64,000 nucleotides of DNA from Brevundimonas variabilis (GTDB lineage Bacteria; Pseudomonadota; Alphaproteobacteria; Caulobacterales; Caulobacteraceae): the NCBI RefSeq assembly GCF_014199945.1, contig NZ_JACHOR010000002.1:310001-374000 (forward strand). Reading direction: 5' to 3'. The position numbers and the translations under genes were made by a program. Position 1 is the first letter of the stretch. Each line of letters begins with the position of its first letter. The notes beneath the pieces are model-generated. The model was not told where the DNA came from. It saw nothing but the letters and a program-made list of their open reading frames with translations, and searched no databases. Shown piece by piece: positions 46,511 through 62,789 of the stretch.

Positions 46511-46531
46511 ACATTGAGACTGACATCGACG

Positions 46532-46824: not shown

Positions 46825-48081
46825 ATGAAGGCGTCAGACATGCTGCTTCGAGAGGCGATCCAGTCCCGGGTTTCGGCCGAGACCAGCCAGAATCCATCCA
46901 CGATCTCTGTGAGGCTTCCCTTGTCGCTCAAGACCGACAAGGTCGCTGTTCGGACGTGCATGTTCCAGCGCCTGGCGAGCTCGCGGCTGTTCGCGCTCGG
47001 CGACCGTTCAGGCGTGCTCAGGGCGGCTCAGCGCCGTTCGGGACGACCCTTCCGTCTGGACGTTCGGCAGCGGGTGATCGTCAAGGCACTGGTGTCGCGC
47101 CACATGGGCAAGGGCCTCGAACGGGCGGCGACTCTGGCCAAACATGTGGCCTATCTCGGGCGGGCCGGTGCGGGCGTGGAAGGGGCGCGGCCCGAGTTTT
47201 TCGATCGTGAGGTCGACGGGGTTGCGGCGGCGATCGAGACGGACGGCTGGGGTGAGGACCGGCATCATTTCCGGTTCATCATCTCGCCGGAGCACGGCGA
47301 CCGGATCGCGGATCTGAAGGGGTATGTTCGCGACGTCATGGGACGGGTCTCAGCCGACCTCGGAGAGCCGGATCTGAAATGGATTGGGACCTGCCACTAT
47401 GACACCGACCAGCCGCACGCCCATGTGCTGGTGCGGGGCCGGCGGGGGGACGGGAGGGACCTGGTCATCCCGCGCGACTACATCGGCTACGGGTTTCGCG
47501 GGCGGGCCCAGGAGGTGGCGCAGGAGCGGCTGGGCGACCTGTCGCGGGTCGAAGCCGAGCGCCGGATATGGAAGGAGACGGAGGCGGATCGGTTCACCGG
47601 GTTCGACAGGCGGCTGCTGGGCGCGGCGGACGGGGAGGGGATGGTCGACGACGGGGTGGGATCGACCGATGCCTGGGCGGCCCTGACGCGCGGTCGGCTG
47701 CGTCATCTGGAGCGGCTGGGTCTCGCGACACGAACGGGGCATCGGTATCGGCTCGATGGAGAGATGGAGACCAGGCTTCGGACCCTTCAGGCGAGGCGCC
47801 ATATCATCCGGGCTCTGAACCAGCGTCGGCTGGAGGGGGCGAAGGAGGTTCGGGTGTTCGCCAAGGATGTCGTGCGGGGAGTGGTCGTGAAGACGGGGTT
47901 TCACGATGAGGCGGCTGCGGTGCCGTTTGTGGTCGTCCGGGATGCCGAAGGGGTCGAGCATTATGCCAGGACGCGAGTGGGTACGAACGGACTAGCGGTG
48001 GGAAAGACGCTGAGCCTGGTGCCATTAGGGGGTGGCTTGGCAGCGATCGACACAGCACGAGGAAGCGAACTGTCCAGGTAG
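46825..48081 (+). CDS. VirD2-type relaxase (DUF3363-related), apparently short
   Basis: Mobilisation relaxase of 418 residues. The catalytic region shows HFRFIISPEHGDRIADLKGY, the metal motif HYDTDQPHAHVLVRG (His191, His198, His200) and LVIPRDYIGYGFRGRAQEV, all typical of relaxase/DUF3363 proteins of alpha- and gammaproteobacterial plasmids. Related proteins are often around 580-650 residues, so the C-terminal domain seems reduced. The first ~75 residues look atypical; an alternative start is the ATG at 46960. It marks the region as conjugative or mobilisable, nicking oriT; an oriT was not recognised. Confidence 0.85.
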   Translation: MKASDMLLREAIQSRVSAETSQNPSTISVRLPLSLKTDKVAVRTCMFQRLASSRLFALGDRSGVLRAAQRRSGRPFRLDVRQRVIVKALVSRHMGKGLERAATLAKHVAYLGRAGAGVEGARPEFFDREVDGVAAAIETDGWGEDRHHFRFIISPEHGDRIADLKGYVRDVMGRVSADLGEPDLKWIGTCHYDTDQPHAHVLVRGRRGDGRDLVIPRDYIGYGFRGRAQEVAQERLGDLSRVEAERRIWKETEADRFTGFDRRLLGAADGEGMVDDGVGSTDAWAALTRGRLRHLERLGLATRTGHRYRLDGEMETRLRTLQARRHIIRALNQRRLEGAKEVRVFAKDVVRGVVVKTGFHDEAAAVPFVVVRDAEGVEHYARTRVGTNGLAVGKTLSLVPLGGGLAAIDTARGSELSR

Positions 48082-48296: not shown

Positions 48297-49097
48297 GTGA
48301 TTCTGATCCGACCGCTTACACGCACGACGGCGGGAAAGCCGTACTATCGCCCCCAGGAGGTCGAGACCGAAATCTTGGGGCTGCTTTCGCTCGGTATCGA
48401 AGAGCGAATGGAAAAGCTCGCGCCGACGTCGCCATCCGGTTTGACCGTTCGCCCAGAGACACTTGTCTACTTCCTTCGCGAAGAAGCTCGTTCCAACCAC
48501 GACGGGCGGTTTCGCATTCTCTACGACCTCGTCATGAGACGATACTTGGCGTTCTTCAGGCCGGCTGATCGCCAGGTCGGGGGAGTGACGCACACAGATG
48601 GCGCTCTTGATGGTGTTCGCCAGCACGCCTCTGAGCGTTTTGTGGAGAAAGTTCTGACGGACCGGACCCATGGTGATGATCGGCTCGACATCTATGAGGT
48701 AAAGTTTGGACTGGCTGCGGCCAAGGACAGGCTCTCCGCGCGCAAGGCTGTATTTCGTCACTTGGATCGCGAGGAGGTGCTGAACCCGCTTGAGAACGGC
48801 CCGATGGCCTCGCCGGAGGTCGAAGCCGCGGCGGCGCGACTGGCGGACGCGGGAGATACGACCAAAACTGACGTATCAGATTACCGGAAAAGCGTTCTGG
48901 CGGTGATTGACACTCTGCCTGACAAATATCGCAGAGTAGCAACCATGACGATGAACAACATTCCGATCGAGGCGAGCGATGCTGATGCGGCGTCGATCAG
49001 TAGGCTTGTCGGCTGCACGCCGAAAACCGCGCGGACCCGGAGAGACCGAGCCATTCAGATGATCCAGGATAAACTGGGCCTCGGGGCGTTGACATGA
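48297..49097 (+). CDS. Sigma-factor-like protein, start of putative defence operon
   Basis: Protein of 266 residues. The middle has no clear match. The C-terminal part (about 198-262) looks like sigma region 4 or a related helix-turn-helix: LPDKYRRVATMTMNN, then ISRLVGCTPKTARTRRDRAI. The GTG at 48297 is chosen, though GGAGG lies only about 3 bases upstream; a later ATG (48408) is possible. Its stop overlaps the next start by 4 bases. Position at the head of eight co-directional genes and the DNA-binding-like C terminus suggest a dedicated regulator; whether it is a true sigma factor is unproven. Confidence 0.65.
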   Translation: MILIRPLTRTTAGKPYYRPQEVETEILGLLSLGIEERMEKLAPTSPSGLTVRPETLVYFLREEARSNHDGRFRILYDLVMRRYLAFFRPADRQVGGVTHTDGALDGVRQHASERFVEKVLTDRTHGDDRLDIYEVKFGLAAAKDRLSARKAVFRHLDREEVLNPLENGPMASPEVEAAAARLADAGDTTKTDVSDYRKSVLAVIDTLPDKYRRVATMTMNNIPIEASDADAASISRLVGCTPKTARTRRDRAIQMIQDKLGLGALT

Positions 49098-49666
49098 CTC
49101 GCTCCGATTTAACGGAGGAGGAAGTCATCGACGCCTTCCTGCTCGAAGTCTCGACCGACAGTCGGACGCTGGCCGTTTATCTGGAACGCCACCCAAAGCA
49201 CGCAGAAGCTTTGCTCGACCTCGCGCACGAGATCGCCTTCAGCGAGGTCAGCCAAAGTGCTCCGCCAGCGCCGGATGAAGATGAGCTCATCGCCAAGGGG
49301 TGGGCTACCATTCAGGCGTCCGCCAAGAAGGCCGTGACGATCGCGGACTGGACCGCCGCTGTGCTTGGCAAGATGCAGAGCAAAGTTGGCGCGCCCATGC
49401 CGATCTTTATGAATCTGCGCGATCGCCGCTTTGAACTGGAAACCTTACCGTCGAAGCTGCTGAACACAATTGCGACCTGCTTGGAGACGACCCGGGGAGC
49501 GATCGAGGACTACCTCCAGCAACCGGGCGGCTTGGCGAAGGGGGCCGCATACAAGTCGATCAAAGCGCCCCAGGTTGCTGACGAAAAGCTCGACTACGCC
49601 GCCTTCCTTCGTGACCTCGGCCTCTCCGAGGACGAGCAGCGCCGCCTGCTCGACGGGTCCGACTAG
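49094..49666 (+). CDS. Unknown helical protein coupled to sigma-like gene
   Basis: Protein of 190 residues, mainly predicted helical, acidic, with one Cys. No family is recognised. Features: an N-terminal EEEVIDAFLLEVSTDSRTL helix, YLERHPKHAEALLDLAHEIA, a central basic KGWATIQASAKKAVT stretch, and a C-terminal LRDLGLSEDEQRRLLDGSD. It overlaps the sigma-like gene by 4 bases and its stop abuts the ATG of the ImmA-UvrD gene directly. That tight coupling suggests it binds the sigma-like protein, as an anti-sigma or antitoxin-like partner, and could be the substrate of the ImmA-type protease encoded next. This is inference. Confidence 0.6.
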   Translation: MTRSDLTEEEVIDAFLLEVSTDSRTLAVYLERHPKHAEALLDLAHEIAFSEVSQSAPPAPDEDELIAKGWATIQASAKKAVTIADWTAAVLGKMQSKVGAPMPIFMNLRDRRFELETLPSKLLNTIATCLETTRGAIEDYLQQPGGLAKGAAYKSIKAPQVADEKLDYAAFLRDLGLSEDEQRRLLDGSD

Positions 49667-52600
49667 ATGGACGCCATAGAGCTCGCCCGGCAGAAAGCGG
49701 CGAGTGTTCACGAGGATGGCGTCAAGCGCGGCGATGATTGCTGGACGCCCTACGCGTTCGTCGTGGCCCAGGCCGGCGCCCATGGTTTCACGGTCTATCC
49801 GGTGCCCGACTCCATGCTGGACGGCGCCTTGGCGCGACTCGATCCGGACGCCCGATGCATCGTCCACACCCAGGTCGGGTCCGCCTTCGAGAAGGCGGTT
49901 TATGTCGCCCACGAACTCGGCCACGCGCTTCTCGGCGACGGAGAACCTGTCAGCGCCTGTGAGATCGACCCACTCAGACCCGCCGAACAAGCGCCGGTCG
50001 GTGAAGAACGCGTCGTCGACTATAGCCGCCGGCAGCGTCGCGAAATCCAGATGGACCTGTTTGCGCGGGAACTCATTCTCCCCCGGCCGGTCGCGCGCAG
50101 ACTGCACGTCGACGAGGGCTGGACGGCCACCAGGATCGCAGAAAAGCTCGGGACGCCGTTCGCGCTGGTGGCCCAGCAACTTCTGGATGCCCTGCTTCTT
50201 CCGCCGATCTGCCCGGAGCCGGATGTCCTCAAGCGGCCGCCAGTCCAGCCAGACCCGTCTCAGACCGCCGCCGCCGGACACAGGGGCGGACCCGCGCTCG
50301 TCGAGGCCGGTCCCGGAACCGGCAAGACACAGACTTTAGTCAAGCGGATCGCGGACCTTCTGGACGAAGGCGTGGATCCGCGGAGCTTTCTAGTCCTGAC
50401 CTTTTCGAACAAGGCCGCTGGCGAGCTGTCCGACCGGATCGCGGCGCGAAACCCCGCCGCGGCAGCGGCCATGTGGATCGGCACTTTCCACGCCTTTGGG
50501 CGAGATCTCGTCCAAAGGCACTTCGAGACCCTGGGTTTCGACAGAGAGCCCCGACTGATGGATCGCGTCGAGGCTATTGAGCTGCTGGAGCCTGAATCGA
50601 CCCGGCTAGACCTTCGGCACTACAAGGATATCCGGAACCCGGCATCCAAATTGTCCGACATCCTGGCCGCCATTTCCCGGGCTCAGGACGAACTCGTCGA
50701 TCCGGCTGAGTATCTGGCTTTGGCTGAGGCGATGGGAGCTTCCGCCGGAGACGATGCGGAACGGCGGACGGCTTCGGAGAAGGCCGCTGAGGTCGCCCGA
50801 GTGTACGAGCGTTATCAGCAAATCAAACGCGATAGGCGTGCGATCGATTTCGGCGACCTGATCACTCAGCCCGTCGATCTGTTGCGCGAGAATCCCGCGA
50901 TCGAGGCGGAACTTCGGACCCGGTACCGCCACATCCTTGTCGATGAGTATCAGGACGTGAACCACGCCAGCGTGGAGTTGCTGAAGCGGCTTAGCCCAAC
51001 GGGTCAGAACCTATGGGTGGTGGGCGACGTACGACAATCGATCTACCGCTTCCGCGGTGCCTCGCCGTTCAACGTCGATCGCTTCGGGACTGAAGACTTT
51101 GGAGGGGGAACACGCCTTCCCCTCGACGTGAACTACCGGTCGAGCGAGGAAATCGTCGAGGCTTTCTCGGCATTTGCGACCGATATGTCCGCCGGCGCCA
51201 ACCGTCCGACCCAGCTACGCGCCAACCGCGGTCCATCAGGCCATGCCGTCGAGCATCGTCGATTTCTGGACAACGACGGCGAGGCGGCGGCCCTCGCCGA
51301 CGCCATTCGCGAGCACATAGAAGCGGGCTTTGCCTTTCGGGATCAATCCATCCTGTGCTCCGGAAACGACCGTCTGGCCCGGTTGGGTTCGGAACTGGAG
51401 CGCCGAGGCATCCCGGTGCTCTATCTCGGCAGCCTCTTCGAGCGTCCCGAGGTCCAGGACCTGCTCTCCTGGCTCAGCCTCCTGACGGATCCGCGGGCGA
51501 TGGGCTTGGTCCGCGCGACGCCCTTGTCGGAAGGGCTCTCGCTGTCGGACGTCCAGTTGGTCACGAGGGCGCTACGGACCATGAACCGGGCCCCGATGGA
51601 TTGGGGGCCCGCGACTGCCGGGGTCTCTGCGGACGGCCACGTAGCCTTGGATCGTCTCCGTGCGGCGCTCGCGGGCTTCACCGCTGGGGATCACCCGTGG
51701 ACGATCCTGGCGACCATCCTGCTCGACCGATCCCGCCTTGTCGCCCACATCGCGACCTCGGGAGAACCGGGGATTGAGGCCCGGGGCGTCGCCATCTGGC
51801 AGTTTATGAACTTCGTCCGCGTCCAACCCGGCGGCGGGCCGAACGGTCCCGTGCGCCGACTGTTTGATCGCATCCGGCGCCTGGTTTCTCTCGCGGACGA
51901 TCGCGACCTGCGCCAGTTGCCGGCCGCGGCTCAAGGCATCGACGCGGTCCGGCTGATGACTATGCATGGAAGCAAAGGGCTGGAGTTCCCCGTCGTTCAT
52001 CTGCCGGGCCTGAACCACAACGCCTTGCCTCGCACCTTCATCCCAAAGCTCTGCTCGCCTCCGGATGGTCTGATCGGGCGCGTGAACGCGCCGGTCAGGG
52101 CTCTGCTTGAGACCGCGCACGACGATGAGCAGGAGTGTCTATTCTACGTGGCGCTCTCCCGAGCGCGGGACCGACTGCTCATCTATTCGGCGCGCAAGAC
52201 CAAAGCGTCGGCGAGCCGGAAGGCTTCCGATCGCGGCGTGTCGGCCTTCGTCGGCCGGGCCACCCGAACGCCCGAGCAGATTCTTCCAGAGGCGGTCCTA
52301 CCGGACCAGCGTCCCGAGGATCAGCCGGTCACCGTCAATACCGTCGAACGGCCCACGTTCGCCCTGCACGAGCTCGGTCTTTACGAGAAATGCCCACGAC
52401 GGTTTCTCTATAGCGTCCTGCTGGCGATCGGCGGAAGCAGCGGAGCGAGACCGTCCTTCGTTACTATGCACGACATCGTGCGGGACGTGCTTGCCGGGCT
52501 CATCCGAGACGATGGCCCGGGCCAAGCCGAGGCGCTTCTCGAGGCCGCCTGGCGGGACAGCAGCCTGTCCGAAGACGAGTACGGCGCCGACTATCGCCAA

Positions 52601-53056
52601 GTCGCCGCAGGCTTGGTCGGCGCGTTCATCGAGAGTCGAAAGGGGCGGCCAGGTGACCCGGGCGACCGCCTCGTGGCGGCGCTCGACCGCGCTGACGTCT
52701 ACATTCGGCCAGACGAGGTCCTCGAAAGTACGGACGGCCCGATCTATCGCCGGGTCCGGACGGGCCACTTCTCCAAAACGAGTGCGGCTGCGAAGACAGA
52801 AGCCGTCTTCCCGCTGGTGATCGACGCCGTTTCGCCCGGGGCGGCGATGGAGGTCGTTTATCTTGGGGACGGCCGGATCGAACAGGTCGCGCCCTTGGCC
52901 CCCAAAGACGCTGGGAAGCGCCGGGACGCGATCAACGGTTTTGTGGCCGAGATCCTGGACGGACGGTTCCCCACCAAGGAGTCGGCGTTCACCTGTCCGA
53001 ATTGCCCTGCCTTCTTTGTCTGCGGACCGATTCCGCCGGGGTCGCTAAAAATCTGA
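49667..53056 (+). CDS. ImmA/IrrE peptidase-UvrD helicase-FeS nuclease-like fusion
   Basis: Protein of 1129 residues joining three modules. Residues about 1-175: a zinc peptidase of the ImmA/IrrE (COG2856) type with HELGH (82-86) and EIQMDLFARELILPR, the usual third ligand region. Residues about 200-890: a UvrD/Rep superfamily-1 helicase with Walker A AGPGTGKT (214-221), DEYQDV, VGDVRQSIYRFRGA and VALSRARDRLLI. The C terminus (about 905-1129) has the Cas4/AddB-type cysteine set (Cys909, then Cys1110, Cys1113, Cys1119), which holds an iron-sulfur cluster; nuclease acidic residues are not clear. It abuts the preceding gene. Likely a DNA-processing effector with a built-in regulatory protease. 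Confidence 0.88.
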   Translation: MDAIELARQKAASVHEDGVKRGDDCWTPYAFVVAQAGAHGFTVYPVPDSMLDGALARLDPDARCIVHTQVGSAFEKAVYVAHELGHALLGDGEPVSACEIDPLRPAEQAPVGEERVVDYSRRQRREIQMDLFARELILPRPVARRLHVDEGWTATRIAEKLGTPFALVAQQLLDALLLPPICPEPDVLKRPPVQPDPSQTAAAGHRGGPALVEAGPGTGKTQTLVKRIADLLDEGVDPRSFLVLTFSNKAAGELSDRIAARNPAAAAAMWIGTFHAFGRDLVQRHFETLGFDREPRLMDRVEAIELLEPESTRLDLRHYKDIRNPASKLSDILAAISRAQDELVDPAEYLALAEAMGASAGDDAERRTASEKAAEVARVYERYQQIKRDRRAIDFGDLITQPVDLLRENPAIEAELRTRYRHILVDEYQDVNHASVELLKRLSPTGQNLWVVGDVRQSIYRFRGASPFNVDRFGTEDFGGGTRLPLDVNYRSSEEIVEAFSAFATDMSAGANRPTQLRANRGPSGHAVEHRRFLDNDGEAAALADAIREHIEAGFAFRDQSILCSGNDRLARLGSELERRGIPVLYLGSLFERPEVQDLLSWLSLLTDPRAMGLVRATPLSEGLSLSDVQLVTRALRTMNRAPMDWGPATAGVSADGHVALDRLRAALAGFTAGDHPWTILATILLDRSRLVAHIATSGEPGIEARGVAIWQFMNFVRVQPGGGPNGPVRRLFDRIRRLVSLADDRDLRQLPAAAQGIDAVRLMTMHGSKGLEFPVVHLPGLNHNALPRTFIPKLCSPPDGLIGRVNAPVRALLETAHDDEQECLFYVALSRARDRLLIYSARKTKASASRKASDRGVSAFVGRATRTPEQILPEAVLPDQRPEDQPVTVNTVERPTFALHELGLYEKCPRRFLYSVLLAIGGSSGARPSFVTMHDIVRDVLAGLIRDDGPGQAEALLEAAWRDSSLSEDEYGADYRQVAAGLVGAFIESRKGRPGDPGDRLVAALDRADVYIRPDEVLESTDGPIYRRVRTGHFSKTSAAAKTEAVFPLVIDAVSPGAAMEVVYLGDGRIEQVAPLAPKDAGKRRDAINGFVAEILDGRFPTKESAFTCPNCPAFFVCGPIPPGSLKI

Positions 53057-53141: not shown

Positions 53142-53858
53142 GTGACCTCCCCGAACGAGAGCCGGCCCGCCGGCGCCCATATCATCCAGTTCGCCGACGG
53201 CGACCTGAACTTCCGCCCCCTCACCCTGTCGGATCCGGTTCCCACCGGCCGCCAGATCCTCAACACCGGCGTCGGGCGCACGGCTGAGGCCTACAGCCTC
53301 TTCGTGATCCTGTCGGATGGCGAGTTCGAAGACATCCGCCTGGATGAGACGATCGACATTCGCCCGCGCGGCGAGGAGCGCTTCATCGGCTTCCAGACCG
53401 ACCGGGACTACAAGCTGGCGATCGAGTCCAGCGACATGCGCTGGGGCAAGCCGGTCATCAGCGGCCGCATCCTTTACGGGTTGGCTGAGGCAGACCCCGA
53501 GGAGACCGACCTCTTCCTGCAGGCCCGCGGCGCCGAGAACCGCCGCATCCGCCCGGGCGATGTCGTCAACCTCGACGAGCCGGGAATCGAGCGCTTCTTC
53601 TTGGCTCCCCGTGTCAAGCCGGGCTTCGGGATTGTGGTCTTGTACAACGGTGCTCCGTCGCCGCAGCGGGTCCGCCCGGAGGAGTCGCTGCAGACGGTCT
53701 TGGACCGGGCCTTGGCTGCCTTCGGCAATCCGACCGGCGGTCCGGTCCTGTTCAACGAGGGCGGTGCCGAGCTCTCGCTGGGCCAGACGGTCGCCCAAGC
53801 GGGTCTCTCCGAAGGCTCGCGCCTGATCCTGCGCCCCCGCGTCGTTCAGGGGGGCTGA
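53142..53858 (+). CDS. Multiubiquitin protein ending in Gly-Gly
   Basis: Protein of 238 residues with three consecutive ubiquitin-like (beta-grasp) units. Units 1 and 2 match the Multiubiquitin family (about 14-84 and 90-156): DGEFEDIRLDETIDIRPRG and ERFIGF in the first, ENRRIRPGDVVNLDEPGIER and RFFLAP in the second. The third (about 161-238) starts GFGIVVLYNGAPS and ends RLILRPRVVQGG, a free C-terminal diglycine as needed for adenylation by an E1. GTG at 53142 follows GGAG by 10 bases. A JAMM peptidase and an E1-like gene follow with 1-base spacing or overlap. It is probably the conjugated modifier. Confidence 0.88.
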   Translation: MTSPNESRPAGAHIIQFADGDLNFRPLTLSDPVPTGRQILNTGVGRTAEAYSLFVILSDGEFEDIRLDETIDIRPRGEERFIGFQTDRDYKLAIESSDMRWGKPVISGRILYGLAEADPEETDLFLQARGAENRRIRPGDVVNLDEPGIERFFLAPRVKPGFGIVVLYNGAPSPQRVRPEESLQTVLDRALAAFGNPTGGPVLFNEGGAELSLGQTVAQAGLSEGSRLILRPRVVQGG

Positions 53859-53859
53859 G

Positions 53860-54300
53860 ATGAAGCTCCAGGTTCCCTCGGCGGTCATTGGGCAAACGTT
53901 CGATCACCTCCGGTCCTGCGGAGGCGGACGCCGGGAATGCCAGTCCTTGTGGGTGGGCCCTTGGGCCCACCCCTCGGACGTCAGCGAGGTCCGGCATCCC
54001 AAGCACACCGCCAGCGCTGTCGGCTTCCAGGTCGACCATGATTGGCTGACCGCTTTCTGGCTGAACCTGGCCGACACGGGTTGCGGAGTCAGGGTCCAAG
54101 TCCACACCCACCCGGGCGCCGCCTACCACTCGACGACGGACGACGCCTTCCCCCTGATCCATACACCGGGCTTCCTCAGCCTGGTCATCCCCCGCTTCGC
54201 CATGGGGCCAGCGGATTTCACCGATGCCTTCCTTGCCCGGATCGAGCCAGATGGCCGTTTCCATGAGGTTCGGATCGCCGATGTCCTGGAGATTGTCTGA
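53860..54300 (+). CDS. JAMM/Mov34-type deubiquitinase-like peptidase
   Basis: Protein of 146 residues with the JAB/MPN zinc site: Glu26 in the GGGRRECQSLWVG segment (general base), and HTHP followed by x6-T-x2-D (His82, His84, Asp95). This matches the E...H-x-H-P-x6-S/T-x2-D pattern of prokaryotic JAMM peptidases found in ubiquitin-like operons, which trim or remove the modifier. It starts one base after the multiubiquitin stop and overlaps the E1-like start by one base. Expected activity: processing the modifier or reversing conjugation. Confidence 0.85.
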   Translation: MKLQVPSAVIGQTFDHLRSCGGGRRECQSLWVGPWAHPSDVSEVRHPKHTASAVGFQVDHDWLTAFWLNLADTGCGVRVQVHTHPGAAYHSTTDDAFPLIHTPGFLSLVIPRFAMGPADFTDAFLARIEPDGRFHEVRIADVLEIV

Positions 54301-55652
54301 TGCTGGCCGAAGCACTCAACCGCACCACTCTGCTGATACGCACCGAACTTCGGGAGGATGTCGCGGAACCGATGCTGGTCGATGCGCTGGCCGGGCTGAC
54401 CGTGGTCATCTCAGCGGATTCCAGCGTCGTCGAGACCGCCTCGGGACGGACAGCGGTCATCACTGCCGCCCTGCTGATGGCCCGTTCCGGCCACCGGGTC
54501 TGGATCGATTGCCCGGACGCATCGATGACGGAGCCTCAGCCACCGCTGGCGCAGACCCGCCTTCACGACGCCCTGCGCCGCGCCGGCGCCGATCTTCTTC
54601 CCGATCGAACGATCGAGATCGGCTCTCCGGCGGAGCCCGTGCATTTCGCCGTGGTCTTCGGCAAGGGTCAGGCCTCGGCGGGGACCGATGTCCTCTACAT
54701 CGGTGCGTCGGACTGGTCCGCCAGCCTTTCGGCGGACTCGCCCCGGGACTGGACCGCCGCCGCCCAACCGTTCGGAGCCATGGCGGCCGGCGCCTTGGCT
54801 GCGAGCGAGGCGTTCAAGGTCGTTATGCGCGGTCTGGCACCGTTCGCGCGGAGCCGCCAGGCCTATGATCGCATGTTCGCCGCGGCGACGGAGGCCGTGA
54901 TCGATCTGACGCCTGCCGCCGCGCGCCCGGCGCCCGATGTCGGCGTCTTTGATCTGATCAGTGGCGGTGCCATAGCCAACGCGGCCCTGTTCGCCCTCCT
55001 CCGGACGCCCGGCATTCTCGGTCGCTGTCGGGTCATCGATAATGACGAGTCCGCTCTCAGCAATCTCAACCGCAACGCTCTACTGCTTCGCTCCGGTGTC
55101 GGCCGGGCGAAGGTCGAAGACTTGGCGCGATATGGCCACAGCCTTGAAATCCAACCGGTGGTCGAGCGCTACCGCGAGAGTCAGTTCCTAGGCGCCGTCG
55201 TGCTGCTGGGTGTGGACGACATCCCCTCGCGCTGGGCGGCCCAGCGCCAGCGACCTGACTGGCTAGGGGTCGGTGCTACGGCCGGATTCGCTGTCCAGAT
55301 CTCGTCGCACGACGCGACGACGCCTTGCGTGGGCTGTCTTCATCCGGTGGCGGGCGACACGGACGGCCCGATCCCGACAGTGGCCTTCGTATCGTTTTGG
55401 GCAGGCCTGCTCCTCGCCGTGCGGCTCTTGTTCCGGCAGGAAGACCGTATTCTGGTCGGCGACCAGACATGGTTCAGCCCGTTGCGGCCCGAGGGCTGGA
55501 GTTATGCCAATATGGGGTTATCGGCGCACGCCGATTGCCCTGTTGGCTGCGACGTTCTGAATTGCGGAGTGCCAACCGAACCTCTCACGGCCTTGTCTTC
55601 AGGTCCTGGTCTGAAGTCGACGACGCACGGCAGTGTTGGCCGTCATGGGTGA
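54300..55652 (+). CDS. E1-like (ThiF) ubiquitin-activating protein with two lobes
   Basis: Protein of 450 residues. The C-terminal half (about 213-420) is a ThiF/E1 adenylation domain: FDLISGGAIANAAL (219-228, nucleotide loop), RVIDNDESALSNLNRN (Asp247, Asp249, Asn255-Arg258), GRAKVEDLA (Lys271), GVDDIP, then PCVGC (Cys343, Cys346) and CPVGC (Cys413, Cys417), a likely zinc pair. The N-terminal half (about 25-200) has the outline of a second Rossmann fold (LAGLTVVISADSSVV, PFGAMAAGALAASEAFKVVM) but lacks ATP residues, as an inactive E1 half would. The catalytic Cys is uncertain. It overlaps the JAMM gene by one base. No E2 gene is adjacent. Confidence 0.82.
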   Translation: MLAEALNRTTLLIRTELREDVAEPMLVDALAGLTVVISADSSVVETASGRTAVITAALLMARSGHRVWIDCPDASMTEPQPPLAQTRLHDALRRAGADLLPDRTIEIGSPAEPVHFAVVFGKGQASAGTDVLYIGASDWSASLSADSPRDWTAAAQPFGAMAAGALAASEAFKVVMRGLAPFARSRQAYDRMFAAATEAVIDLTPAAARPAPDVGVFDLISGGAIANAALFALLRTPGILGRCRVIDNDESALSNLNRNALLLRSGVGRAKVEDLARYGHSLEIQPVVERYRESQFLGAVVLLGVDDIPSRWAAQRQRPDWLGVGATAGFAVQISSHDATTPCVGCLHPVAGDTDGPIPTVAFVSFWAGLLLAVRLLFRQEDRILVGDQTWFSPLRPEGWSYANMGLSAHADCPVGCDVLNCGVPTEPLTALSSGPGLKSTTHGSVGRHG

Positions 55653-55738: not shown

Positions 55739-58405
55739 ATGAAACTGGTCTTCGGGCTTGGCGCTGACGGTCGTACCTGGCCGGAAACAGCAGCGATCAC
55801 AGGGGATCTCGACGACGGAGTCGTCGGACCGCACGGTCTTGTCGGCCTGATCGAGGCTCAGCTGGGCCTTGGAGGTCCGACGGTTTCCCGCCCCGTCCGT
55901 GTCGCCTCCTGGCTGACCAAGTTGCGCGTCGCCGGTCCCGGAAAGTTCTGGGACCGATCGTTCGAGAAGGACGCCTGGTCCACGGCGGGAACCCTGCTGG
56001 ACTGGCGCGACGCTCTGGTGGCCGGCGGTTGGTCCGGACAGCGGATCGGTACGCCCCGGGTGGATGATCTGGCCGACGCCGACCAAGCGGGATTGCCCTT
56101 GCCTCCGGGCCTGTCCGATCGGGCCGCGCTCGCCGCCCGCAATCTCGCCACCCGGCCCGGTCTCCGCATCGTATCGATCACCCTGGTCGAACCACGCCTC
56201 TTGCTGCCTCCGATCCTCGCGCGACTAGTAAACGCACTCGAAGCGGTTGGCGTGGAGATCGGCGCCTGCCCCCTCCCTACGCTTGCCGCGGCCGGTTCAG
56301 ATCTTCGCCGTGTACAGAATGCCTTGGGCGGTGGCCCGCGGGAGCCTCTGGCCGGCGACGGCTCGCTCGTCGTGATTGAGTCCGATACCGCGCTCATGGC
56401 TGCCGAGACCGTGGCGGACTGGCTGGCGGCGGGGCCAGCGGACGCTGTGATCCTCGCGCCCGACGGCGACACCGCTTTGCTGGACCGAGCCCTCAAGGCC
56501 CGCGGCCTCCCGGCGCTCGGCCTCTCCGCCGCCTCGCCCTGGCGGGGCGCCCTGCAGGTCCTGCCTCTGGCTTTTGCGTCAGCTTGGCGGCCGTTCAACG
56601 CTCGCGCCCTGCTCGACCTGATGATGCTGCCGCGTCCGCCGATCGCCCGATGGGCCGCCCGCCGTCTCGCCAGGACTCTCGCCGAGCAGCCTGGCATCGG
56701 CGGCGCCGTTTGGCTCGAGACCTGGACGGGCCTGGAGGCCAGGCTACTCGAGTTGAACGAGGGCCACGAAGATCCCCGGGGCAAGACAGACCGGACGCTG
56801 GTCCAGTGGCGGTCTTGGACGGAGGTCGGGCTTCACGACCGGACTGTCGGCATGCCGATCGAGGCCGTCCGCGAGGTCGCGGGCCGCGTCGCCGCCTGGG
56901 CCATCCGGACCGATGCGGGCGGGCAGGACCCGCTACTGCTGGGCGTCGCCTCGGCTGCGGGAGCCGTGGTCGACGCCGCCACCCGACTTGAACTTGAGGA
57001 AATCCCAGCCCTTCTGCTGGAACGCATGATCGGGCAGATCCTGACCGACGGCGTCTCCAACCCCGCGCACGTCGCCGAGTCCGGCGCGCTGCGTGCGGTT
57101 CGTACCCCCGGAGCCCTCTGGGGTTCGGCGACACGGGTGATCTGGTGGGGCTTTGCCGGCCCCGGCGATAAGGTCGCGCCCGAGCGATGGGACCGGGCGG
57201 AACGCGAGACGCTCGCTGCGGCTGGTGTGACGCTGGAAAGCCCGGCCGACGTGTCGGCGCGGATCGGAGCCGGCTATGTGGGCGTGTTGATGAACGCCGC
57301 CGAGCAGATGCTGTTTGTGCGGCCGGCGCTGGCCGGAGGCGAGCAGACGACCGCCCATCCGCTTGCGCACCAGCTTCGCCCGATTCTCCACGGCGCAGCG
57401 GACGGCGTGCTATTTCAGGGCGAGCGGCTGCTAGCCGAGCCTGTGATTGATTTGGCGCGACGGCGCCTTTCCCGCGCACCCGTCGATACGCTCGAGCCCC
57501 CACAGGGCGTGCCCCAGTGGACGGTTGCCGCCGACCTGTCGCCAACCCTCGACAGTCGCGTGGAGAGCGCCACCTCCCTGGATCGGCTGTTGAACTGTCA
57601 GATGGGCTGGTTTGCCCAAGACGTTCTCGGTCTGCGGCGAGGACGCCATGCCGAACTGCCAGATGCCAGCCAGTTGTTCGGCACTCTCGCCCACGAGATC
57701 GCACGTCGGCTTCTGCCGCCCGGTCCGCCCCCGCCCCTCAGCGGCGTGCGCGTATCTGCTTCGACGCTGTTCGACGAACTCTTGCCCGCTATGGCCGCCC
57801 CGCTGGCCCAGCCCGAACACGCAGGCGAACTTGCGGCCGCCCGCGAGCAGGTGCCCGCTGCGATGGAGGCGCTCGTCCGCCTGCTTCATGAGCGCGGACT
57901 CGAAGTCGTCGGCGCGGAGCTTTCGCGTGAGGGGTGCTTCGGCAACTTACCGCTCACCGGTCGCATCGACTTGATGGTCCGCAGCGGCGCCGAGGTCGCG
58001 GTGCTCGACCTGAAGTGGACCCGGTCCGAGCGCCGCTACGTGTCCTTGGTCGCCGACGGCGCGGCGGTGCAACTCGCAGTCTATCACGCCTTGGCCCGGG
58101 CCGACGGCGCCGTTGCGCCTGGCGGCTATTTTCTGCTGCGCCAAAGGCGCGTGGTCGCCGGAACAGGTTCCTTCCTGACCGGGGATCCGGTCGATGCGGC
58201 GCGCTCGGACGGCGATACTCTGCGGGTCGTCGTCCAGGACTGGGCGGCCTGGACGGCGCTCGCCAGCGAAGGCGTCCTCGTCGCCGCCGGTCTGCCGGAC
58301 TCCGCAGTGGGTCGGCCGACCGACCTCGGCTTCAAGGTCCCGGAAGCCCCCTGTCGCTATTGCGACCTCACCGGCCTGTGCCGCATCAACGTCGAGGCCC
58401 ATTGA
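55739..58405 (+). CDS. AddB-like inactivated helicase/PD-(D/E)XK nuclease
   Basis: Protein of 888 residues of AddB type. The first two thirds carry no intact helicase ATP site, as in AddB. The C terminus (about 615-888) is a PD-(D/E)XK nuclease: GRIDLM (Asp744), VLDLKWT (Asp757, Lys759), and the iron-sulfur cysteines Cys620 with Cys872, Cys875 and Cys881, the same C-x2-C-x5-C spacing as in the ImmA-UvrD fusion. GGGGAG precedes the ATG by 7 bases. Its stop overlaps the next start by one base (TGATG), so it pairs with the UvrD/AddA-like protein. The gap to the E1-like gene is 86 bases. Confidence 0.8.
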   Translation: MKLVFGLGADGRTWPETAAITGDLDDGVVGPHGLVGLIEAQLGLGGPTVSRPVRVASWLTKLRVAGPGKFWDRSFEKDAWSTAGTLLDWRDALVAGGWSGQRIGTPRVDDLADADQAGLPLPPGLSDRAALAARNLATRPGLRIVSITLVEPRLLLPPILARLVNALEAVGVEIGACPLPTLAAAGSDLRRVQNALGGGPREPLAGDGSLVVIESDTALMAAETVADWLAAGPADAVILAPDGDTALLDRALKARGLPALGLSAASPWRGALQVLPLAFASAWRPFNARALLDLMMLPRPPIARWAARRLARTLAEQPGIGGAVWLETWTGLEARLLELNEGHEDPRGKTDRTLVQWRSWTEVGLHDRTVGMPIEAVREVAGRVAAWAIRTDAGGQDPLLLGVASAAGAVVDAATRLELEEIPALLLERMIGQILTDGVSNPAHVAESGALRAVRTPGALWGSATRVIWWGFAGPGDKVAPERWDRAERETLAAAGVTLESPADVSARIGAGYVGVLMNAAEQMLFVRPALAGGEQTTAHPLAHQLRPILHGAADGVLFQGERLLAEPVIDLARRRLSRAPVDTLEPPQGVPQWTVAADLSPTLDSRVESATSLDRLLNCQMGWFAQDVLGLRRGRHAELPDASQLFGTLAHEIARRLLPPGPPPPLSGVRVSASTLFDELLPAMAAPLAQPEHAGELAAAREQVPAAMEALVRLLHERGLEVVGAELSREGCFGNLPLTGRIDLMVRSGAEVAVLDLKWTRSERRYVSLVADGAAVQLAVYHALARADGAVAPGGYFLLRQRRVVAGTGSFLTGDPVDAARSDGDTLRVVVQDWAAWTALASEGVLVAAGLPDSAVGRPTDLGFKVPEAPCRYCDLTGLCRINVEAH

Positions 58406-61400
58406 TGACCAAGCTGACAGCCGTGACCGCCTCCGCCGGCGCGGGGAAGACCACCCGGATCGTCGGCGACATCGCCGCCGAGGTCGCCACGCGGCCGCCC
58501 GAGGAAATCGTCGCCACCACCTTCACAATCAAGGCCGCCGACGAACTGGTCGAGCGCGCCCGGGCGCGGCTCTTCGGAGACGGCCAGACCGAGGCCGCCG
58601 CCCGCCTGCTGGGAGCCCGCTTCGGGACGGTCAACGCCGTCTGCGGCCAGATCGTCTCGGAGTTCGCCTTGGATCTCGGGCGGTCACCGTCCACCGCCGT
58701 AATCGGCGCGGAGAACGAATCTCTCATTTTCTCGATGGCTGCGGACCGTGCCATCGCCGCCCATGCGCCTGTCTTGAACGAGCTGGCGGAACGTTTCGGT
58801 TACAACGATCCGCGTCCGCCCACGGGCGGAGAGGGGCCGGACTGGCGTCGGACCGTGCGCCGGATCGTAGATCTCGCTCGTTCCAACGGCCTGGACGCCG
58901 ACGGTGTGCGATCCTCCGCCAACCGGTCGATAGAGGCCTACCGGTCGCTACAGCCTTTGGCCGCACCGGACGGCGCGGCTCTCGACGCGGTCTTAAAGGA
59001 TGCTCTCGCCGCGACGATGGCCGCGCGGCCCGCCGAACTCAGCGTGAAGGCCAAAAAGCCCATGGACGTCATCCGGGCAGCCCACCAGCGCGCAAGCCGT
59101 GGAGAGACCCTGTCCTGGCCGGCCTGGGCCAGACTGTCCAAGGCGGAGTGCGCCCCGACGAAGGACGGACCCGCCTTCGCGGCGGCCATAACCGCCCTGA
59201 GCGCTGCGGCAGGACGGCACGCCGAGCACCCGCGCCTGCGCGAGGAGACGAAGGCCTTCATCCACTCCACTTTTGAATGCGCGGCCGAAGCGCTGGCAGC
59301 CTACCAAGAGTGGAAGGCTCAGCGCGGCCTGCTGGACTTCACCGATCAGGAGGCGCTCGCACTCGAGGTTTTGCGCGACCCGACGATGGCTGGGCGACTG
59401 AGGGAGCGGATCAGCCGGGTATATGTCGACGAGTTTCAAGACTCCAGCCCCCTCCAGTTGGCCGTGTTTACGGCGCTGGCGGGTCTGGTCGAGGAGAGCA
59501 CCTGGGTCGGTGATCCCAAGCAAGCCATCTATGGTTTCCGAGGCGCCGATACAGACCTGACGCAGGCCGCCTTCGCTGGTGCAGCGGCCGGAGGAGATTC
59601 GACCGACGTGCTGGCGACATCCTGGCGCAGCCGTACGGGCATCGTGGAGCTTTCGAACGCCCTGTTTACCCCATCGTTCGAGCGCATGGGGCTGCCTGCC
59701 GCCAGCCACGCGTTCGCCGGCACGAACCGGTCCGAAACCGGCTTCGATCGGACCGCGCTGGGCTGGTGGACCTTGACTGGCAAGGTGGACGAGCAGGCCA
59801 AGGCGCTCGCGGCGCAGATCGTCGCAAGCTTGGAGAACGGCGCCGAGTGGTTGGTCGAGGACCGATCAGGCGAACACCGTCCTCTCGCGATTGGCGACAT
59901 CGCGATCCTCTGCCGCACCAACACCGACGTGGCGCGCTACGCTCGAGCCCTGAGCCAAGCCGGCCTGCCGGTGGCGGTGGAGCGCAGCGGACTGGCCCGG
60001 ACCCCACATGTCGAGTTGGTCCTGGCAGGCTGCCGGTGGATTGCGGACGCCTCGGATCGCCTTGCCTTAGCCGAGCTAGCCCGGTTTTTCTCGGATGACC
60101 CTGCGTCAGACGCTTGGTTGGCGGCTGCCGCGGATGCAGACCCCGAGGGAGCTTTGTCCGCGCTCGTGCCTGTGGCTGCGGCTCTAGCCGCCGTCAGGAC
60201 GGAAACGCTTAGCTTGACACCCGCCGAGCTGGTAGACGCCGTCGTGGCCCAGCCTGAGGTGATGGCTCGCATCGAGCGCTGGGGCGACACTGCGATCCGC
60301 TTTGACGACTTGGAAGCGCTGCGCGGGTTCGCCCGGACCTATGAAGCGGAGTGCGCCTCGTCGGGCGCCCCGGCCACGCTTCCCGGCCTCATTCTGGCTC
60401 TCGACGGCGCAGATCCGAAGCGCCCGCCGAGCTTGGCCGCGGACGCCATCCAGGTGATGACTTATCATGGCGCTAAGGGCCTGGAGTGGCCGATGACGTT
60501 GCTTGTCGGCCTCGGTTGGGAGCCGAAGGCCCGCCTGTTCGAACCTTCAGCTGAGGTCGATGGCGAGATGGACTGGCGAGACCCGCTGGCTAACCGCTGG
60601 ATCCGCTTCTGGCCCTGGCCCTACGACCTGGCCGGCGGCGGCAGCGCGCTCGAGGTCGCGGCTGCCAACTCGGCGTTTGGGCAGGCGGCTTGGCGCAGGG
60701 CCGTGCAGGAGGACACCCGCCTGCTCTACGTCGGCGTCACTCGGGCGCGAGATTATCTGATTTTTGCCGCGCCGCCAAAAAGTCCATCCTGGTTTAAAGT
60801 CCTGGACGAGGTTGACGCGAGTCCCCATCTCACGCCGCCCGCCGTTGACGACAACCTCATCGGGGTGGGCGACGAGACCTTCGTTGCCGACGTTCGCGTT
60901 CTTGCGGCCGACGACGGTTCGAGCGCCCGCTACCCGCAGGCGCCTCATGTCACGGTGCGGGCGGCTGCCGGCCCGCCGGCCTCAGCCCTCTTTGTGAAGC
61001 CAAGCGGCGCGACCGGTGAAGGCTGGCGGGTGACCGAGCGGATCGTCCTTGGGCCGAGGCTCGGGATCGACGGAGTGACCGACATGGCCGCCTTGGGCGA
61101 GGCCCTGCACGCCATCCTCGCCTACGACGATCCGGTCAGGGACCGTGACAAACGCCTCGCCGATGCGGATGCCATTCTCGGTCGTTGGAACGTTCCGGCT
61201 CTTTCCGCCGCAGACGCGATCGAGGCCTCGACCCGTCTCCAGACGTGGCTTGCCAACCGATGGCCCGGCGGCGAGATACTGCGCGAAAGCCCGGTTCGGG
61301 CGCGAGTCGGGGACCAGATCGTCCAGGGGCGGATCGACCTTCTGGTCCGACACGCCATTGGCGCCTCCATTCTCGACCACAAGAGTTTCCCTGGTGCCTT

Positions 61401-61548
61401 CAACACCTGGGACGATCGCGCTCTCGGTTATGCGCCACAGGTCGGTCTCTACGGTGAAGCCATCGCGACCGCCACTGGCGCGGCATGTGACGATCTGTGG
61501 ATTCACATGCCCGTCGTAGGGGCCCTGCTGCGCGTTGAGCGAGGCTGA
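58405..61548 (+). CDS. AddA-like UvrD helicase-nuclease
   Basis: Superfamily-1 helicase of 1047 residues. Motifs: ASAGAGKTTRI (Walker A, from residue 8), YVDEFQDSSPLQ (Walker B), VGDPKQAIYGFRGAD, MTYHGAKGLEWP (motif V), GVTRARDYLIF (motif VI). The C terminus is a PD-(D/E)XK nuclease: VQGRIDLLVR (Asp978), LDHKS (Asp991, Lys993), then QVGLYGEAI. AddA/RecB-like layout; with the AddB-like protein it would form a complete helicase-nuclease complex. The ATG overlaps the AddB stop by one base. It is not the housekeeping repair enzyme by context, since it ends a gene cluster with ubiquitin-like and ImmA elements. Confidence 0.87.
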   Translation: MTKLTAVTASAGAGKTTRIVGDIAAEVATRPPEEIVATTFTIKAADELVERARARLFGDGQTEAAARLLGARFGTVNAVCGQIVSEFALDLGRSPSTAVIGAENESLIFSMAADRAIAAHAPVLNELAERFGYNDPRPPTGGEGPDWRRTVRRIVDLARSNGLDADGVRSSANRSIEAYRSLQPLAAPDGAALDAVLKDALAATMAARPAELSVKAKKPMDVIRAAHQRASRGETLSWPAWARLSKAECAPTKDGPAFAAAITALSAAAGRHAEHPRLREETKAFIHSTFECAAEALAAYQEWKAQRGLLDFTDQEALALEVLRDPTMAGRLRERISRVYVDEFQDSSPLQLAVFTALAGLVEESTWVGDPKQAIYGFRGADTDLTQAAFAGAAAGGDSTDVLATSWRSRTGIVELSNALFTPSFERMGLPAASHAFAGTNRSETGFDRTALGWWTLTGKVDEQAKALAAQIVASLENGAEWLVEDRSGEHRPLAIGDIAILCRTNTDVARYARALSQAGLPVAVERSGLARTPHVELVLAGCRWIADASDRLALAELARFFSDDPASDAWLAAAADADPEGALSALVPVAAALAAVRTETLSLTPAELVDAVVAQPEVMARIERWGDTAIRFDDLEALRGFARTYEAECASSGAPATLPGLILALDGADPKRPPSLAADAIQVMTYHGAKGLEWPMTLLVGLGWEPKARLFEPSAEVDGEMDWRDPLANRWIRFWPWPYDLAGGGSALEVAAANSAFGQAAWRRAVQEDTRLLYVGVTRARDYLIFAAPPKSPSWFKVLDEVDASPHLTPPAVDDNLIGVGDETFVADVRVLAADDGSSARYPQAPHVTVRAAAGPPASALFVKPSGATGEGWRVTERIVLGPRLGIDGVTDMAALGEALHAILAYDDPVRDRDKRLADADAILGRWNVPALSAADAIEASTRLQTWLANRWPGGEILRESPVRARVGDQIVQGRIDLLVRHAIGASILDHKSFPGAFNTWDDRALGYAPQVGLYGEAIATATGAACDDLWIHMPVVGALLRVERG

Positions 61549-61799: not shown

Positions 61800-62789
61800 T
61801 TAGACCCGACCCGTCGCGAGGATAATCTTGAGTGACGGATCGGTTTCGGTCGTCTCGACGATCCGATTGTAGATCTCGAGCAACTGACCGATCTCGTAAG
61901 CGCGGGCCTGCGGACTGTCGCCGCCGTGGTCGAGCGCGCTGGCGGCGAGCCACTGGTGGGAGTCGAACACGTCTATGCGATCGGCGATGCCGGCATTCTC
62001 GGCCAGGCCGGTCGCCAAGGTGACGCCCCGCCCCAGTGTGAGGATGACAGGTCGCTGCCCGCCGGACAGGTTGGTTTGGCATTTGCGGATTAGGGCTTCG
62101 CCTGGGGCGGTCGAGACGTGGATCGCCAGATCCCCGATTGAGAAATCGCCAGGACGTGACTGACCCTCATCCTTGGTGGAGACCGAGTGATGCTCCACCT
62201 GCCCGTAGGCCCCTTCGAGTTTCGCGCCGACCAGATGTTGGAGCACTGTGCCGACGACCATGGTGCCGGGCGTTTCGCGCTGACGGACTCCGGCCTGCTC
62301 GAACAGATTGCGGAAGGCGGTGCGCAAGCTGGCTTGCGGATCGAGTCGCATGACCAGCGGTTTGCCCGCGAAGAAGAGCTGGACCCTGGAAATCCAGAAC
62401 GCCTCGACCTGGTCCAGGTCGAGCGCGCTGTCGCCTTCGGCATAAAGCTCATTGAGCAGGGCGACGTAGGCGGTCATCTTGCCCATGGAGCCGCGGCTGG
62501 TTCGGCCGCCTTCTTCGGCGAGCACCCGGTCGATGCCGTGGCGGGCGAGCACCTGCTGGACCTTGCCTTTGCCGAGCCCGAGAACCTGTCCCTCCTTCTC
62601 CGTGCGGAGGCGTGCCGGATCCAGGGGAAGGCCCATGGTCCGCGCGTGGTCGGTCACAACCAAGGGCAGGCCCAGGGCGCCCTTGGAGCGGATGGCGTGC
62701 TCATCAGCGAAGGCCGCGAGGCGGCCCGTGAGACCGTCCTGAGACTGCGGGGCGTCTGTCGGACTTGCCCCGGGCTCTTCGGACGCCAT
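61800..62789 (-). CDS. DUF4928 protein, probable type II restriction endonuclease
   Basis: Protein of 329 residues matching the DUF4928 pattern: KGALGLPLVVTDHARTMGLP, LGLGKGKVQQVLARHGID, AEEGGRTSRGSMGKM and a late VGTVLQHLVGAKLEGAYG. DUF4928 genes recur beside C5 cytosine methyltransferases and are likely restriction enzymes; the acidic residues of a nuclease fold are not assigned here. The ATG at 62789 is 4 bases after the methyltransferase stop on the same strand; the longer frame to 62888 lies within that gene. Expected role: cutting DNA lacking the protective methyl mark. Confidence 0.8.
   Translation of the reverse strand: MASEEPGASPTDAPQSQDGLTGRLAAFADEHAIRSKGALGLPLVVTDHARTMGLPLDPARLRTEKEGQVLGLGKGKVQQVLARHGIDRVLAEEGGRTSRGSMGKMTAYVALLNELYAEGDSALDLDQVEAFWISRVQLFFAGKPLVMRLDPQASLRTAFRNLFEQAGVRQRETPGTMVVGTVLQHLVGAKLEGAYGQVEHHSVSTKDEGQSRPGDFSIGDLAIHVSTAPGEALIRKCQTNLSGGQRPVILTLGRGVTLATGLAENAGIADRIDVFDSHQWLAASALDHGGDSPQARAYEIGQLLEIYNRIVETTETDPSLKIILATGRV

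Follow-up and report, generated by a model that had tools for sequence, protein, structure and literature searches.

A three-gene cassette of Brevundimonas variabilis, located in a stretch of 64,000 nucleotides (contig NZ_JACHOR010000002.1, positions 310,001 to 374,000 of the forward strand; hereafter the window, from a host genome of 3.4 Mb), encodes a ubiquitin-like modifier, a JAMM peptidase and a ubiquitin-activating-type enzyme (E1), and very probably represents a branch of the bacterial ISG15-like (Bil) system that has no conjugating enzyme (E2). Judged by its sequence, the cassette is related to Bil through a BilA-like modifier, a BilC-like JAMM peptidase and a BilD-like E1, and no E2 was found. 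A canonical relay of the modifier from an E1 cysteine to an E2 cysteine is in all likelihood absent: on a plain reading the E1 would be unable to pass a thioester to an E2 and is still kept by selection. That this identity and the lack of a canonical relay are combined with protein conjugation as output is considered probable, with less assurance. The genes lie at 53142-55652, tightly packed on the same strand in the list of open reading frames (ORFs 53133/53142-53858, 53860-54300 and 54300-55652), with a gap of 1 base between modifier and JAMM genes and an overlap of 1 base between JAMM and E1 genes. The features of the cassette are:

53142..53858, + strand: ubiquitin-like modifier, 238 residues (241 from a TTG at 53133), with two Multi_ubiq domains, a C-terminal BilA-like (DUF2604) domain and a Gly-Gly end
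53860..54300, + strand: JAMM/JAB peptidase, 146 residues, BilC relative with all ligands and the branch-specific invariant residues Cys20 and Cys27
53917..53919, + strand: codon of JAMM Cys20 (Cys in 11/11 E2-less JABs; Val in the 3/3 plasmid BilCs covering the site)
53938..53940, + strand: codon of JAMM Cys27, adjoining the catalytic Glu26 (Cys in 11/11 E2-less JABs; Gly in 3/3 BilCs)
54300..55652, + strand: E1, 450 residues, BilD relative with one inactive and one active adenylation domain and no cysteine domain
55371..55385, + strand: E1 junction, residues 358-362 (IPTVA), the place where BilD holds a domain of about 80 residues with Cys417

Kinship with the Bil system

Bil (BilABCD) was reportedly described by Chambers in 2024 and by Hor in 2024, and its anti-phage activity reportedly proceeds by conjugation to virion proteins. 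In plasmid Bil operons of Rhizobium, Sinorhizobium and Mesorhizobium (5/5 records), genes for a DUF2604 protein, BilB (the E2), a Mov34 protein and BilD stand in this order, and the order in the window is that of Bil, A-C-D, minus BilB. In the five records BilB is annotated 'putative metal-binding protein' (in one, 'hypothetical protein', a label likewise given to the Mov34 protein in one of the five) and BilD 'E2 ligase fold family C protein'.

The modifier matched Multi_ubiq (PF14452) of Pfam in two stretches (E 2.2e-32), and its residues 164-230 matched DUF2604 at E 4.4e-4, below the Pfam cut-off; the window modifier was aligned with plasmid BilAs, and the single-domain modifier of a related locus (L025; the loci are listed below) matched DUF2604 above the cut-off (E 1.3e-7). 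The C-terminal end reads VVQGG, and Gly-Gly ends were found in 10 of the 11 modifiers of the branch, that of L025 having Gly-Gly plus four residues; nine of the 11 aligned over the full three-domain length. The JAMM protein matched Prok-JAB of Pfam below the cut-off (E 0.0036) and BilC of PADLOC at E 2e-12, and the best match of a six-row profile in the PDB was BilC (8tyx, E 2.3e-21). The columns of E26, H82, H84, S91 and D94 were occupied by these residues in all 11 JABs of the branch. At the positions of Cys20 and Cys27, BilC 8tyx carries Val and Gly, and the residue after the catalytic Glu is Ala, Ser or Gly in 7/7 JABs of more distant Bil-like operons; the BilC comparison at both sites comprises three rows, the annotated BilC of L061 beginning downstream of the region. 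According to a figure legend of Iyer et al. 2006 (PMC1779556), some JABs share a conserved cysteine, which may or may not lie at one of these positions. Rather than a thioester carrier, the JAMM protein is more probably a peptidase in which the cysteines serve structure or redox chemistry, although their presence coincides with the absence of the E1 and E2 cysteines. The E1 matched ThiF of Pfam below the cut-off (E 1e-5) and BilD of PADLOC at E 2e-11, and the best match of a five-row profile in the PDB was BilD (8tyz, E 2.8e-26). The predicted model of the E1 (predicted local distance difference test, pLDDT, 76.7; predicted template modelling score, pTM, 0.83) had BilD as its best structural match (Z 41.7, residues 1-408), followed by UBA1 and UBA6 over both adenylation domains at about Z 26, with MccB, PaaA, ThiF and MoeB as further relatives. 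Arg258, Lys271 and Asp306, which were matched to catalytic residues of MoeB and UBA1 named in PMC12355090, were invariant in all 15 rows of an alignment of ten E2-less E1s and five plasmid BilDs.

With Bil (row 6c of Iyer et al. 2006) the cassette thus has in common the BilA-like C-terminal domain, the BilC-type JAMM, a BilD-like E1 with inactive and active adenylation domains, the order A-C-D and its occurrence in alphaproteobacteria. It differs in the two Multi_ubiq domains added to the modifier at most loci, in the two extra invariant cysteines of the JAMM protein and in its linkage to an M78-UvrD protein, a sigma-like gene and an AddAB-like pair; because neither a BilB E2 nor the cysteine domain of BilD was found when looked for, it is placed as a variant of Bil rather than a member. 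The cassette resembled a multiubiquitin operon because two Multi_ubiq domains precede the BilA-like domain, and the first-pass annotation had named it so. The tandem Multi_ubiq domains are indeed shared with the PF14452 operons, for which no catalytically competent E2 is described, whereas the E1 of those operons is mostly fused to the JAB and here separate genes were found at 11 loci (one E1, that of L028/L026, being split by a contig end in this count); the JAMM protein is BilC-like, the E1 BilD-like, and no E2-like domain was found. By the BilC and BilD matches, the nearest family is therefore Bil and not the multiubiquitin operons. The statement of the same annotation that multiubiquitin operons usually carry an E2 disagrees with row 6e of Iyer et al. 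2006 (PMC1779556), in which a subset has an E2-like domain without the cysteine. Its observations on the cassette itself were borne out, namely the adjacency of three genes with spacing or overlap of 1 base, the Gly-Gly with which the modifier ends and the complete set of zinc ligands in the JAMM peptidase; the kinship with BilC and BilD, the absent cysteine domain of the E1 and the M78 domain fused to a helicase had been overlooked.

The E1 cysteine domain and the search for an E2

When E2-less E1s were aligned with the five plasmid BilDs, one segment adjoining residue 360 was absent from all ten; the eleventh E1 (L026) has a partial N-terminus and reads straight through the junction, so that the segment is lacking in 11/11. 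In the plasmid BilDs it contains Cys417 in four of five and Cys414 in the fifth, and according to a review (PMC11354881), Cys417 of BilD, in a cysteine domain of about 80 residues, accepts BilA from the adenylate. The Cys417 column holds Cys in 12/13 E1s of other Bil-like operons and in 0/11 of the branch. Among the 12, the E1s of L056 and L057 come without a profile-recognized E2 (E 0.67 for L057; L056 lay outside the search). The only invariant cysteines of the branch E1s are C343, C346, C413 and C417 (numbered in the window E1), two close pairs that presumably form a Zn site as in ThiF-type enzymes. In the alignment, Ile358, invariant in the branch, sits at the position of the ThiF cysteine, C184; a crossover-loop cysteine of the ThiF type, as in SAMP/TtuB-type E1s, was looked for in the branch E1s and not found. 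Each of the 11 E2-less E1s carries Thr360 (compared in two alignments of ten), exactly at the missing segment; in BilD the corresponding AFxS helix is preceded by Met. The simplest reading would be that the E2 and the E1 cysteine domain were lost together in one event.

The search for an E2 was performed with a profile of ten E2 rows (A5) on 1336 ORFs of at least 60 residues from 13 stretches, namely the contig of an E1 fragment (L060) and the 11 loci, of which one is in two pieces; none of the 1336 matched at E<1, the best value being 1.3, and the L031 and L026/L028 loci are cut by contig ends. As a positive control, an E2 kept out of the profile (L052) scored 3.9e-45. Genome-wide, profile A5 had no match at E<=1 in the five host genomes tested (of 11) and detected 4/4 control genomes (E 1.3e-58 to 8.6e-55), whose E2s had themselves gone into the profile. 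PF14455 (BilB, Metal_CEHH) matched none of the five hosts and only one control (G256), and PF14461, PF14462 and PF14457 matched none of the nine genomes, a set without a positive control for these three. At the level of profiles, an E2 acting in trans thus found no support in the five hosts (four Pfam families and profile A5, 0 matches). In ten neighbouring proteins scanned, no CD-NTase and no E2-E1 fusion (Cap2) of the type II CBASS system was detected; in contrast to that system, the N-terminus of the E1 is the inactive adenylation domain of BilD.

An E2 hidden in the N-terminus of the E1 was also rejected. Residues 115-175 matched Prok-E2_C of Pfam weakly (E 0.002), and in Iyer et al. 2006 (PMC1779556) the N-terminal region of such E1s is read as an E2. 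Prok-E2_C was also matched by two plasmid BilDs, one at 1.9e-77 (residues 38-166) and the other at 1.3e-37, within what the review (PMC11354881) describes as an inactive adenylation domain, and the model matched BilD over residues 1-408 as well as UBA1/UBA6; for these reasons the region is not taken to be an E2. No E2 fold was present among the structural matches listed for the model, an absence that by itself proves nothing. PF14459 (Prok-E2_C) thus corresponds to BilD residues 38-166, the inactive adenylation domain; the label 'E2 ligase fold family C protein' is misleading, and a Prok-E2_C match on such an E1 does not denote an E2. A 190-residue protein encoded upstream (described below) was rejected as an E2 on an all-alpha model of moderate confidence with no strand of three residues.

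These results bear on the earlier claim of no visible E2, which holds at 11/11 loci by profile and genome-wide in five hosts, and for which a survey of homologous operons had been proposed; the survey gave 11 loci of the branch with no recognizable E2 nearby. Three routes of transfer had been suggested. Transfer by the E1 alone is the best supported of them, with the qualification that the E1 also lacks the modifier-passing domain. An unrecognized E2 fold is disfavoured in E1 residues 1-210, which the fold search assigns to the inactive adenylation domain of BilD/UBA1, and in the 190-residue protein, which is predicted all-helical and of which no copy was detected at L025 or L027; for a host enzyme there was no candidate at profile sensitivity in the five host genomes.

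Modifier, JAMM and E1 genes occur in that order at 11/11 loci of the branch:

The window; L003, Rhizobium beringeri plasmid; L024, Brevundimonas nasdae; L025, B. aveniformis
L027, Caulobacter ginsengisoli; L028/L026, Caulobacter sp. AP07, split on two contigs
L031, Novosphingobium; L032, L034, L035 and L036, Sphingomonas

The branch is rare. Full E1 matches were obtained in 5/299 genomes of the family, one split on two contigs, and among 385 genomes of the class only the window and one fragment were recovered; a scan of genome contigs gave nine loci, four of which belong to genomes already counted. None of 21 pattern-matching stretches in viral contigs encodes a relative, and one plasmid record (R. 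beringeri) does, in a search from which records close to the window genome were possibly left out. A phylum-wide profile search yielded 26/398 genomes at E<=1e-10; the two best matches besides the window are BilD-like frames of 520 residues, the remaining ones begin only at residue 199 (the ThiF-like part), and the only one inspected (G784, L090) is a normal BilABCD operon with an E2. In the E1 tree, a split with support 99/99 separates the 11 branch E1s from 13 other Bil-like E1s; the nearest neighbours are apparently BilABCD, with a weak join (73/26), long branches and an unrooted tree. Two loci of genome G371 were included in the tree, the E1 of L029 was left out of the E1 alignments, and L045/L055 and L049/L059 were dropped after no ubiquitin-like cassette was seen by eye. 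The ratio of non-synonymous to synonymous substitution rates (dN/dS) of the E1 was 0.157 between the window and B. nasdae and 0.142 between two Sphingomonas, and 0.09-0.21 for eight operon genes against B. nasdae, indicating purifying selection; the values come from a simple count and are rough, dS being near 1 for several genes. A decayed locus was ruled out by dN/dS.

Side observations concern two E1s. L060 (G536, 9261-9566) is a lone C-terminal fragment of an E1 of the E2-less type with no modifier or JAMM match near it; it was left out of locus counts, alignments and tree, its ORFs being inside the 1336. The E1 of an E2-bearing Bil-type operon (L029, 9800-11024) reads in two frames, which may reflect either a pseudogene or an error of sequencing.

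Neighbouring genes

The genes around the cassette that enter the proposals below are:

48297..49097, + strand: sigma-factor-like regulator (weak Pfam match to Sigma70_r4_2, E 0.044, below cut-off)
49094..49666, + strand: 190-residue helical protein (model all-alpha), candidate helix-turn-helix (HTH) partner or substrate of the M78 peptidase
49667..53056, + strand: M78 (ImmA/IrrE) peptidase, UvrD helicase and degenerate PD-(D/E)XK domain in one protein of 1129 residues (Pfam)
55739..58405, + strand: AddB-like PD-(D/E)XK nuclease with four invariant cysteines (Pfam PDDEXK_1, 3.5e-21)
58402..61548, + strand: AddA-like helicase-nuclease (Pfam UvrD; nuclease motif in 7/7)

The first-pass annotation had described the cassette as embedded with helicase-nucleases; the same-strand run was confirmed, and the peptidase fused to one helicase had escaped it. 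The M78 domain matched Pfam at E 4.2e-11, and HELGH at 82, Walker A and B motifs and Cys 909/1110/1113/1119 were found in 8/8 fused M78-UvrD proteins, the four cysteines being spaced like those of a [4Fe-4S] site. An M78 peptidase is present at 10/10 loci with upstream sequence (L031, which begins near the modifier gene, is outside this count) and is fused to UvrD in eight; in L025 it stands alone (Pfam E 2.9e-21), and in L027 it accompanies an HTH-like gene and was identified from its similarity to the L025 protein (E about 1e-3) and from a HELAH motif. Of seven more distant Bil-like operons, three (L054, L057 and L058) also have an M78 protein next to them (E about 1e-9 or better), and a fourth, L053, whose E2 seemingly lacks the catalytic cysteine by eye, has a weak match (E 0.002). 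An M78 peptidase with HExxH beside a small regulator before an immune-type operon is shared with CapH+CapP and DdrO-PprI; here, in contrast, the peptidase is fused to UvrD, and its partner would be the 190-residue helical protein together with the sigma-like factor. The 190-residue protein, a natural M78 partner by its position immediately upstream, was modelled as all-alpha with moderate confidence (pLDDT 74, pTM 0.49), and no relative was found beside the L025 and L027 cassettes. The sigma-like protein matched an NCBIfam sigma factor at E 0.0024, far below the cut-off; relatives occur at seven more loci, the L003 copy being annotated as sigma-70 family.

The AddAB-like pair is found at 7/11 loci (window, L003, L024, L031, L032, L034 and L035) and was not seen at L036, L028/L026, L025 and L027; the two genes have the same direction in the window and are convergent in the other six. 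The AddB-like protein has its catalytic motif and Cys 620/872/875/881 in 7/7 and no match in NCBIfam, and the AddA-like protein matched addA_alphas at E 7.9e-42 (144 bits, where the cut-off is 861). Orthology to cellular AddAB is unsupported, given an AddA far below the equivalog cut-off and an AddB without NCBIfam match. The pair resembles AddAB in joining a helicase-nuclease to a nuclease partner, both with their nuclease motifs intact, and in the four conserved cysteines of the AddB-like protein; it differs as an accessory copy.

Further observations were made around these loci. Beside the cassette operon, on the opposite strand (61800-63939, -), lie genes for a cytosine methylase and a restriction-type DUF4928 protein, and a methylase about 70% identical adjoins a Bil-type operon in L029 (11851-13998). 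In L003, an operon of a multiubiquitin protein, a DUF6791-ThiF protein and a DUF6527 protein (2778-5126) lies directly beside the E2-less cassette; in L027, a gene of 222 residues without Pfam match follows the E1 (8227-8895, -); and in L061 (Rhizobium etli p42a, 8365-9723) TIR-domain and caspase-family genes follow the Bil operon. The sequence to the left of the operon (window 1-33675 and 39010-48081) holds a metal-resistance region encoding two RND efflux pumps, two metal P-type ATPases and a multicopper oxidase. Mobile-element genes follow there: one for a strawberry-notch-type helicase and, recognized by eye, ssb-like genes and a relaxase-like gene. Relaxase-like genes (judged by eye) and genes of plasmid type in the vicinity point to mobile elements.

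Proposed transfer of the modifier and rival explanations

Read from the sequences, the most likely course is that the E1 only adenylates the modifier and that transfer proceeds either directly or through a new nucleophile; an even chance is given to direct transfer from the adenylate. In outline, the E1 would adenylate the Gly-Gly end of the modifier, an amine of an E1-bound target protein or of the modifier itself would attack the acyl-adenylate directly, and the JAMM peptidase would trim precursors and reverse conjugates. DNA damage or single-stranded DNA (ssDNA) made by phages would switch the operon on: the M78 domain fused to UvrD would sense ssDNA in the manner of CapP/PprI and cut the 190-residue protein, and this cleavage would free the sigma-like regulator. 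Likely targets are the co-encoded helicase-nucleases or invading DNA-binding proteins. A role of the operon in DNA damage or defence is reasonably probable. Taken as a whole, a conjugation without thioester relay, in which a single adenylating E1 attaches the multi-domain modifier to its targets from the adenylate or via a new carrier (Thr360 or the JAMM cysteines), with expression gated by the M78-helicase protein and with an origin from a full Bil system by joint loss of E2 and E1 cysteine domain, is held tentatively, a little short of even. Precedents exist for several parts. CapP and PprI, peptidases of the M78 class, are activated by ssDNA and cut an HTH repressor (PMC13373217 and PMC10904395), and archaeal sampylation proceeds without an E2 according to the review (PMC11354881). 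Sampylation (SAMP/UbaA/HvJAMM1) likewise combines modifier, E1 and JAMM without an E2, and differs from the cassette in its E1: the one encoded here lacks the crossover cysteine, carries an inactive adenylation domain in addition and descends separately. In SAMP/TtuB-type conjugation the E1 has a crossover-loop cysteine. MccB and PaaA, which together with sampylation are the closest chemical parallels, are E1-like adenylyltransferases and structural matches of the E1 model and act without an E2, on peptides in antibiotic synthesis; the cassette differs in having a ubiquitin-like protein with a JAMM peptidase. No description of an E2-less Bil branch was found in the literature, in a search that did not reach the main Bil, Bub and CapP papers.

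Several points weigh against the reading of an E2-less branch with direct transfer. An E2 too diverged for the profiles could exist: PF14455 missed three of four control genomes, those with more distant E2s, a BilB-only profile missed four more distant E2s, and profile A5 gave E 0.67 on the 308-residue protein in the E2 place of L057. The E1 of L058, an E2-bearing operon, has a gap at the Cys417 column with cysteines nearby, so that E2 and Cys417-column cysteine are imperfectly coupled outside the branch. In this E1 (6516-7826) a shifted catalytic cysteine is possible, judging by the cysteines close to the gap. With the E1 tree unrooted, loss rather than gain is inferred, as are the activity of the branch and phage defence by it. 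The HTH matches of the 190-residue protein are weak and non-significant, the PD-(D/E)XK residues in the M78-UvrD protein appear degenerate, and an ester through Ser/Thr (the invariant Thr360 of the E1) or through the new JAMM cysteines would be possible.

The last point leads to an alternative, considered unlikely, in which E1 Thr360 (as an oxyester) or JAMM Cys27 or Cys20 takes the modifier and passes it on, the JAMM protein being an E2-like carrier as well as a peptidase. The Bub pathway has reportedly been proposed to use ester intermediates. The invariance of both JAMM cysteines in 11/11 E2-less JABs, with other residues in BilCs and distant JABs, and of Thr360 in 11 E1s at the point of the missing segment, where BilD has Met, would agree with such a carrier; on the other hand, the residue after the JAMM Glu could point away from the active site, the two cysteines might be joined in a disulfide or be a structural pair, and conservation alone does not amount to catalysis. 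That a diverged or host-encoded E2, or the E1 of another pathway, works in trans is distinctly improbable: profiles do miss diverged E2s (L057, the BilB-only profile, PF14455), but 0/5 host genomes matched PF14461, PF14462, PF14457, PF14455 or profile A5, and with the modifier-passing domain of the E1 missing, an E2 would be left without a thioester donor.

Two further alternatives dispense with the E2 on other grounds. The modifier might be a sulfur carrier, adenylated by the E1 and converted by a sulfur donor to a thiocarboxylate, with the JAMM protein releasing products; parallels are the CysO/Mec+ and ThiS/MoaD pathways. Modifier, JAMM and E1 without an E2 also occur in sulfur-transfer operons (rows 4b-4e of Iyer et al. 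2006, PMC1779556), and ThiF and MoeB are structural relatives of the E1. Neither a rhodanese nor a cysteine synthase nor another sulfur gene was recognized in the 10 proteins scanned, however, the E1 belongs to BilD and has both adenylation domains, and the neighbours are helicases, nucleases and an M78 peptidase; this pathway, too, is distinctly improbable. Least expected is an output without protein conjugation, in which AMP-modifier or head-to-tail modifiers serve as a signal or filament controlling the helicase-nucleases; it would fit the alignment of 9/11 modifiers over three domains and the resemblance of the E1 to a Cys-less adenylyltransferase, but the full ligand set of the JAMM protein at 11/11 loci suggests an isopeptide to be cut.

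The preferred reading of an E2-less Bil branch with a thioester-free E1 bears on what conjugation requires. Relays of cysteines from E1 to E2 are taken as the core of ubiquitin-like conjugation, and the branch has neither cysteine step; if the cassette still tags proteins, the route must be shorter than the standard one. The branch thereby makes testable the minimum needed to attach a ubiquitin-like protein and the choice of targets without an E2. A Bil-type cassette tied to helicase-nucleases and to an M78 protein of an ssDNA-sensor class suggests that bacteria may tag proteins in response to DNA.

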